Source of the DNA: Kyrpidia tusciae DSM 2912
GTDB lineage: Bacteria > Bacillota > Bacilli > Kyrpidiales > Kyrpidiaceae
Direction: 5' to 3'
NCBI RefSeq assembly: GCF_000092905.1
Contig: NC_014098.1
Span: 1-64,000, forward strand
DNA length: 64,000 nt
In this document: positions 25,918 to 31,528 of the stretch, in pieces
Layout of the letters: each line of letters opens with the position of its first letter
Numbering within the stretch: the first letter of the stretch is position 1
Made by a program: the position numbers and the translations under genes
Notes under the pieces: generated by a model
Told to the model about the DNA's origin: nothing
The model's database searches: none
The model's input: only the letters and a program-made list of their open reading frames with translations

Positions 25918-26238
25918 TCAGACAACTTTGATCTTCTTTTGCTCACGTAGAAGGCTGGCGTGGCGGCTGTGCTTGGTTCGCCAACGCAGGTACGATCGGA
26001 TCGCTGTGGCCAACGCCTCATGATGGGGATAGTTACTCCCGCGCAAGACAAACGATCGCAACGGCGCAAAATGGCATTCGGTTCGGTTCAACCATGATGC
26101 CTGGGTCGGTGTAAAAACCAGTTCTACATTGTTTTCTGCAGCCCCCTCAGTCACAGTGCGATGCTTGTGAGGTGAAAAATTGTCCAAGACCACGTACAGC
26201 CGTTCAGAGCGGTGATACCGCCGGCGGAGCATTGCTAT
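25918..26238 (-). mobile_element. IS630-family transposase fragment
   Basis: Encodes the C-terminal part of an IS630-type DDE transposase: RLYVVLDNFSPHKHR with the second catalytic Asp, FTPTQASWLNRTECHF with the final Glu region, and the tail RTKHSRHASLLREQKKIKVV. The N-terminal half is absent. It abuts an unrelated IS1634-type fragment near 26236-26245. No terminal repeats were recognised, so this is a decayed remnant. Confidence 0.78.
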
Positions 26239-26590
26239 ATAACACCTGCATCTCTTGTTCGAACAGATACGCCAACAACACACAGACAAAAATGTGGCCT
26301 CGTACCCGCTTCTCGTTCCAGGGATAGACAGGTCCCACATCGAGGAAGTTCTTGATCTGTCGAAACGCCCGCTCAATCCCCATCAGCGTTTTGTAGGACA
26401 ACACCACGTCCCCGGCCGGGATGGTCGTGTTCGTCCGAATCAAGAACTTCCCGTCCCGCAGAGCCTCCTTGGCAAGGGCCCCTTCGTCCCGAGCAAAGAC
26501 ATAGCGTGCATACCCATCGCATCCATGGCACGCAAGAAACCCCGGGGCTTTCTCGAGGCGGACCATTTTCAAGGCGGACAACGCAGATTG
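26239..26590 (-). mobile_element. IS1634-family (IS4-like) transposase fragment
   Basis: Encodes the C-terminal part of an IS1634-type transposase: DGKFLIRTNTT, the E-box YKTLMGIERAFRQIKNFLDV with the catalytic Glu, and the closing RVRGHIFVCVLLAYLFEQEM. Upstream it reads SALKMVRLEKAPGFLACHG, but the first catalytic regions are missing. It lies directly downstream of cbaA. GGCGGAC-type complementary arms at about 26574-26596 could be the cbaA terminator on the minus strand. Confidence 0.75.
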
Positions 26591-29139: not shown

Positions 29140-29465
29140 ATGTGCAAAATGGACCGAGAAGCGGCACTTCGGAGGATAGCGGCATACAGCCCTAGGGGAC
29201 CTGTGAAAAAGTCTTTGATCCAATGAACATGGTGCAAATATAGCGCATGGAACATTAGTTGAACACTATATATGGGACTTAGTTATGAAATAAGGTGGAT
29301 TTTCACAGGTTCCCTAGGGAGTTGGAAGACTGGAAACGCCACGTGTTGCGGTGCCGGGCTCACTTTGCCCGGGATCACAACCTCTTTGAAGTGGAAGAGT
29401 GCGATTTTTTACTTTTGCACATTGAGGAGCGGTTGAAGGGCCAAAGGGGTCAAGGGGTCAAATGA
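29140..29465 (+). pseudogene. Small gene interrupted by a MITE-like element
   Basis: The 5' part (29140-29195) reads MCKMDREAALRRIAAYSPR and the 3' part (29318-29465) reads on in ELEDWKRHVLRCRAHFARD through FEVEECDFLLLHIEERLKG to a TGA at 29463-29465. Removing 29196-29313 plus one CTAG copy joins them in frame, giving about 67 residues. The product is charged and helical; no family was recognised. ATG 29140 lacks a good ribosome site, so further decay upstream is possible. Confidence 0.65.
29196..29313. mobile_element. 118-bp MITE-like element with terminal inverted repeats and CTAG duplication
   Basis: The ends are inverted repeats: GGGACCTGTGAAAA (29196-29209) and, read inward from the other end, GGAACCTGTGAAAA (29313-29300), with one mismatch. 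Both sides carry CTAG (29192-29195 and 29314-29317), a 4-bp target duplication. No coding capacity. This is the anatomy of a non-autonomous element mobilised by a transposase that duplicates CTAG; no related full IS copy lies in this window. Confidence 0.78.
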
Positions 29466-31369: not shown

Positions 31370-31481
31370 CGCCAGACGGATCACAGCCAGATGCAGACTG
31401 TCCGCCGTCGCATGGTTCGAGCGAGCGCTCGAAGTTACCCTGAATGACCGTGGCGGTTTATGATCAGACTTCAGGCCGTTA

Positions 31482-31524
31482 AGTCCGGCGGGGCCGGCTG
31501 AGGGCCAGCCGGCCCCGCCGGACT
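31482..31524. terminator. Bidirectional terminator with a perfect 19-bp stem
   Basis: 31482-31500 and 31506-31524 are perfectly complementary over 19 bases with a 5-base loop. It sits between the convergent L,D-transpeptidase and ymaF genes, and could end both transcripts. Confidence 0.7.
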
Positions 31525-31528
31525 TTCG

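Follow-up and report, generated by a model that had tools for sequence, protein, structure and literature searches.

A 118-bp mini-transposon with IS1182-family ends probably interrupts a small gene in Kyrpidia tusciae

Is the 118-bp segment that divides a short reading frame of Kyrpidia tusciae DSM 2912 a mobile element, and if so, which kind of transposase brought it there? The locus lies in the first 64,000 nucleotides of contig NC_014098.1, the whole stretch that we analysed and call the window (64 kb). We consider it very probable (about 0.93) that 29196-29313 is a non-autonomous MITE with IS1182-family ends that inserted at a CTAG in a small gene and duplicated these 4 bp, a reading carried by its matched ends, the 4-bp duplication, an empty site in relatives, a dispersed family and IS elements with matching ends. 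The parts of the locus, some of them compared with relatives (congener G002; Alicyclobacillus mengziensis), are as follows.

29140-29195, plus strand: 5′ part of the interrupted gene, MCKMDREAALRRIAAYSPR, from the ORF reading and the alignment with the G002 protein VDRSEVLKRIENSDRQELEAWKRHV
29192-29195, no strand: left CTAG, 4-bp target-site duplication, from the sequence and from relatives that include six CAAG..CAAG copies
29196-29313, plus strand: probable non-coding MITE of the IS1182 end type, 118 bp, with terminal inverted repeats (TIRs) and a covariance-model match of 109.6 bits to a multi-genome family, this copy being one of the ten sequences that built the model
29196-29209, plus strand: left TIR, GGGACCTGTGAAAA, which matches the exact IS1182-family ends CTAGGGGWCCTGTGAAAAAGT of A. 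mengziensis
29235-29274, no strand: degenerate central hairpin CAAATATAGCGCATGG-AACATTAG-TTGAACACTATATATG, homologous (alignment A4) to a 16-bp hairpin that is perfect in the wider family
29300-29313, minus strand: right TIR, read as GGAACCTGTGAAAA on this strand, with one mismatch
29314-29317, no strand: right CTAG, second copy of the target-site duplication, from the sequence
29318-29465, plus strand: 3′ part of the interrupted gene, ELEDWKRHVLRCRAHFARDHNLFEVEECDFLLLHIEERLKGQRGQGVK, whose frame remains open and can be read from a GTG at 29295 contributed by the element

The original prediction placed the element, its 14-nt TIR with one mismatch and its CTAG flanks exactly where a re-check of the sequence finds them, and its description of the segment as non-coding agrees with the lack of any credible coding ORF; the segment thus has the short, transposase-free, TIR-bounded form of a MITE. 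The inverted repeat appears longer than the 14-nt TIR because CTAG is palindromic: CCCTAGGGGACCTGTGAAAA at 29190-29209 returns as a near-perfect reverse complement at 29300-29319, giving 20-nt arms that are 95% complementary and 90 nt apart, this being one of just two 20-nt inverted repeats in the window whose arms are at most 300 bp apart. At 31481-31525, after a peptidoglycan-binding gene, the window also holds a perfect, GC-rich inverted repeat (20-nt arms, 5-nt loop). The fold of 29192-29317 lies far below those of shuffled sequences (z −4.28; 0/200). A consensus scan found no sigma-70 promoter within the element, Rfam gave it no match (the sole hit being an M-box riboswitch near one relative), and it was unmatched in plasmid, phage and viral collections.

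The reading frame supplies an argument independent of the repeats' appearance. Deleting 29196-29317 (122 bp, that is, 118 plus one CTAG) leaves a single 67-codon frame in which MCKMDREAALRRIAAYSPR continues into ELEDWKRHVLRCRAHF..., as predicted. Joining the two frames takes a shift of 2 mod 3; 118 is 1 mod 3 and 126 is 0 mod 3, so removal of either length cannot achieve it, and since only 122 bp fits, the frame favours a 4-bp duplication. Comparison with an empty site in relatives, proposed earlier as a check, bears this out. Congener G002 carries the same small gene, intact, colinear and without the element; its protein, VDRSEVLKRIENSDRQELEAWKRHVLRCREHFIRDRNAFEVEECDF..., aligns ungapped to MDREAALRRIAAYSPRELEDWKRHVLRCRAHFARDHNLFEVEECDF..., encoded by the two window halves once joined (34/53 residues identical), and the ATG at 29149 is the codon homologous to its GTG start. 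By codon position the two genes differ at 15/17/32 nucleotides, a third-position excess as would be expected of a coding gene. In G002 the gene lies upstream of a LysM/M23 peptidase gene, the same place as in the window. Congener G001 has the flanking DNA at this locus and neither the small gene nor the element. The claim that the insertion is recent stands in so far as it came later than the split from G001 and G002; nothing narrower is supported.

In the window genome the upstream half meets a stop inside the element, and the downstream half keeps an open frame that could be read from the GTG at 29295, in the element's right end. Searches of Pfam and NCBIfam with the small protein gave nothing convincing. 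The gene is dispensable in the genus, because G001 keeps the flanking DNA without gene or element, and that the insertion cost the window genome this gene seems plausible from the sequence.

Whether the segment belongs to a dispersed family was examined with a covariance model built from ten copies, the window copy included. As for the other copies that the original prediction proposed to look for, neither sequence nor model searches found a second one in the window's own genome, G001 has one, and more than 100 distinct copies are present in four genomes (G342, G378, G406 and G408) of another family of the class; model match counts include both strands of one palindromic copy, and the distinct places listed alone exceed 100. 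Multiple copies are thus dispersed, in unrelated flanks. The G001 copy (328294-328419), likewise in unrelated flanks, is ~80% similar to that of the window, with 81% identity over the left 86 bp, and is bordered by CTAT/CTAG. At G001:C1:327871-328419 (L042 5872-6420) this copy follows an IS630-type transposase remnant at ~57 bp, between glycosyltransferase-like genes.

Among the 78 copies inspected, those of the window and G001 included, length with both 4-mers is 128 bp in 46 and 126 bp, as in the window, in 17. The flanking 4-mers are identical in 38/78 (shuffled mean 25, p 1e-4) and read CTAG/CTAG in 30/78; six copies, in six different flanks, have CAAG...CAAG. Five tandem pairs of MITEs overlap by exactly 4 bp, and here one element is inserted into the duplication of another. 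On contig C216 of G408, from 10651 (L172 252-2230), the order is MITE-CTAG-MITE-CTAG followed by a complete IS of a second IS1182-family type (455 bits, with GAGTCTGTCCGACG as ends), each junction being a single shared CTAG; this IS itself lies between CTAGs. We rejected an element boundary at TGTGAAAA with an 8-bp duplication of CCCTAGGG, which would give the same empty site; in the relatives the duplication is 4 bp long and base conservation extends beyond TGTGAAAA.

The source of the element can be read from its ends. Searching for the pattern CTAGGGGWCCTGTGAAAAAGT returned 15 exact matches, 14 of them in A. mengziensis, where each match that could be traced to the other side marks the left end of an element of ~1.85 kb (1.65 kb in one copy). 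These elements fall into two sequence types, have TTTATCACAGGACCCCTAG or TTTTTCACAGGACCTCTAG as right ends and lie between CTAGs in unrelated flanks. Their transposase, of 528 aa, scores 277 bits against the NCBIfam IS1182 model (cut-off 270) and matches Pfam DDE_Tnp_1_6 and DUF772. The search for a full IS with the same ends, another check proposed earlier, therefore led to IS1182-family elements that share both ends and CTAG flanks, and these elements, together with a relic in its own genome, support the assignment of the MITE as IS1182-derived. The link is made through the terminal ~20-28 bp along with the target duplication; more extended homology plays no part in it. This relic has the near-identical end GGGGGCCTGTGAAAACGTCC at G000:C1:830967 and, ~60 bp later, MFRKHQHQVSFADADNWLAKTPPNSIWHRFRTWAQENG, which is 47-55% identical to the N-terminus of the A. 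mengziensis transposase and then truncated; the ends therefore belong to an IS1182-family lineage once resident there.

IS630 elements take CTAG as a target, and an IS630/Tc1-mariner MITE, for which CTAG would be the preferred site, only TA would be duplicated and the outer C and G positions would be part of the element, was the source we first considered, given CTAG with its TA and the IS630 fragment next to the G001 copy. Transposase genes or fragments of the IS630 type (DDE_3) are common in both Kyrpidia-like genomes, one ~57 bp from the G001 copy and another in the window. Against this origin, the full-length elements bounded by these ends have transposases of IS1182 and not IS630 type, the own-genome relic on such an end is IS1182-type, and six copies are flanked by directly repeated CAAG, 4 bp that lack a central TA. 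On ends, transposase type and CAAG duplications, with no sign of a TA-only duplication, we rejected IS630, which we now think very improbable.

The supposition that CTAG merely forms the outer end of the inverted repeat, that nothing was duplicated and that the small gene never formed one frame draws on CTAG being self-complementary, so that the window alone cannot separate repeat from duplication, an ambiguity that also attended the predicted target duplication. The relatives settle the point: CAAG is not palindromic, so CAAG...CAAG is a direct 4-bp duplication and not part of an inverted repeat, the relatives' CAAG is never inverted, and tandem pairs share one 4-mer. With an uninterrupted gene in G002 and an ungapped junction, this supposition is even harder to sustain than an IS630 origin. 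A target duplication and an empty site are thus found together, in the CTAG duplication, the restored frame, the G002 gene and the CAAG repeats. That the 118 bp are instead a functional regulatory or structured RNA or DNA element kept in place, as the strong fold and the covarying hairpin of the wider family might suggest, is equally improbable for a segment that is absent at this locus from both congeners and present elsewhere in one, has family copies in unrelated flanks, lacks an Rfam match and splits a coding frame.

The transposases of IS1182 elements belong to the DDE class, and a MITE is moved in trans by a transposase that recognises the ends it shares. We posit that an IS1182-family DDE transposase acted in trans on ends of ~17 bp and that the element, probably by cut and paste, inserted into the CTAG within a CCCTAGGG palindrome inside the small gene. 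A 4-bp staggered cut and its repair would have duplicated CTAG, and the net gain of 122 bp would have shifted the frame and interrupted the 67-codon gene, presumably with loss of its function. The original prediction held that a transposase elsewhere must mobilise the element; the IS1182 ends and the relic uphold this for the past, whereas for the present the own genome offers only the truncated relic. Some results count against our reading: searches of that genome turned up neither a second copy nor an intact transposase with matching ends, and no close transposase came to light in the MITE-rich G342 and G378. Because the cognate transposase is found in the own genome only as a truncated relic, the window copy is probably stranded and now immobile.

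Other transposon sequences of this genome were also considered. A ~1.7-kb IS occurs at about 12 places on G000:C1 (e.g. 3094499, 1368072 and 2813525) in copies mostly 97-99% identical; it is distantly IS1182-like (155 bits against the cut-off of 270, with a weak DDE_Tnp_1_6 match), and we rejected it as the mobilising partner since its ends differ (GAGCCTTTTTCGATGC). Two unrelated transposase fragments adjoin at 25918-26581 of the window, minus strand: a C-terminal part of the IS630 family (NCBIfam 56.8 bits, below cut-off) and a part that looks IS1634/IS4-like by eye only.

Elements of this kind were known before, since IS1182-derived MITEs have been reported in Methanosarcina and 4-bp repeats in ISPse1 and ISPsy36. 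In the accessible text of the Methanosarcina acetivorans report, the MITEs derived from ISMac2 (IS1182 family) are 160 bp long, in 14 copies, with IR 26 and DR 4 (PMC3852290); like the window element's group they are short, non-coding and multi-copy, with an IS1182-family partner and 4-bp direct repeats, and they differ in their archaeal host and in that this text mentions no central hairpin. ISPse1 measures 1653 bp, with IR 16/16 and DR 4 (PMC3281130), and ISPsy36 has 4-bp GGCC target repeats (PMC8027508). With these IS1182-family elements and those of A. mengziensis, which share the exact end CTAGGGGWCCTGTGAAAAAGT, the window element has in common short TIRs and a 4-bp, often palindromic target duplication; unlike them, it encodes no transposase. 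IS1272, placed in the IS1182 family and hence in that of the inferred mobilising enzyme, replaced inverted-repeat targets in new insertions with no duplication (PMC5678879), whereas 4 bp are duplicated in the group studied here. Literature searches for IS1182 with CTAG and for Alicyclobacillus or Kyrpidia MITEs returned nothing specific, and the literature library searched yielded no description of this Bacilli family.

The middle of the element in the wider family is a 16-bp hairpin, typically CACATATAGCGTTTGA-GGCTTTAA-TCAAACGCTATATGTG; one example lies at L130 1501-1626, with relatives in G342, G378, G406 and G408. Alignment A4, in which structure was ignored, comprises 67 distinct copies, with the hairpin in columns 46-85; 92% of cells pair, and across genera 11/16 pairs have compensatory changes that affect both sides. 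No shuffled or slid control comes near the hairpin's covariation score, the shuffles ignoring relatedness, and we regard the covariation evidence as strong but not final. Most copies have GGCTTYAR as the 8-nt loop, one position of which never varies (67/67). In the two Kyrpidia-like copies the hairpin is degenerate, and that of the window forms 12/16 pairs, counting G-T.

Three readings of the hairpin may be offered. It could be (i) a functional part of the element and no passive remnant, acting as a second site for the transposase or for a host factor, as an insulator that blocks read-through or as an RNA, so that these MITEs would be under structural selection and the window copy would be a decaying version, which we hold as a tentative and rather unlikely view; (ii) a product of quasi-palindrome correction during replication, which would give paired changes without selection; or (iii) an inheritance from IS leaders. 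The second fits a set of copies lengthened by ~25 or ~50 bp (L092 1501-1651, which is the L136 copy, L131 1501-1651, L190 201-353 and L173 206-382): they arise via tandem duplication of one hairpin arm and the loop, and these ~25-bp arm duplications are suggestive of replication slippage at the hairpin. The third is considered because IS1182-type relics in G406 have a hairpin (L204) or MITE-like sequence (L160) shortly before the transposase start; in L160, ~108 bp of leader is 70-75% like MITE interiors and may be an adjoining decayed MITE.

The locus thus offers a clear, checkable case in which a gene was split by a mini-transposon, probably now stranded, that can be assigned to its source family by its ends. 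The analysis also brought to light a large family of IS1182-type MITEs in Bacilli with a 4-bp CTAG/CAAG target preference. The hairpin is the sole surprising part: either replication homogenises the palindromes of MITEs, or the hairpin serves the element.
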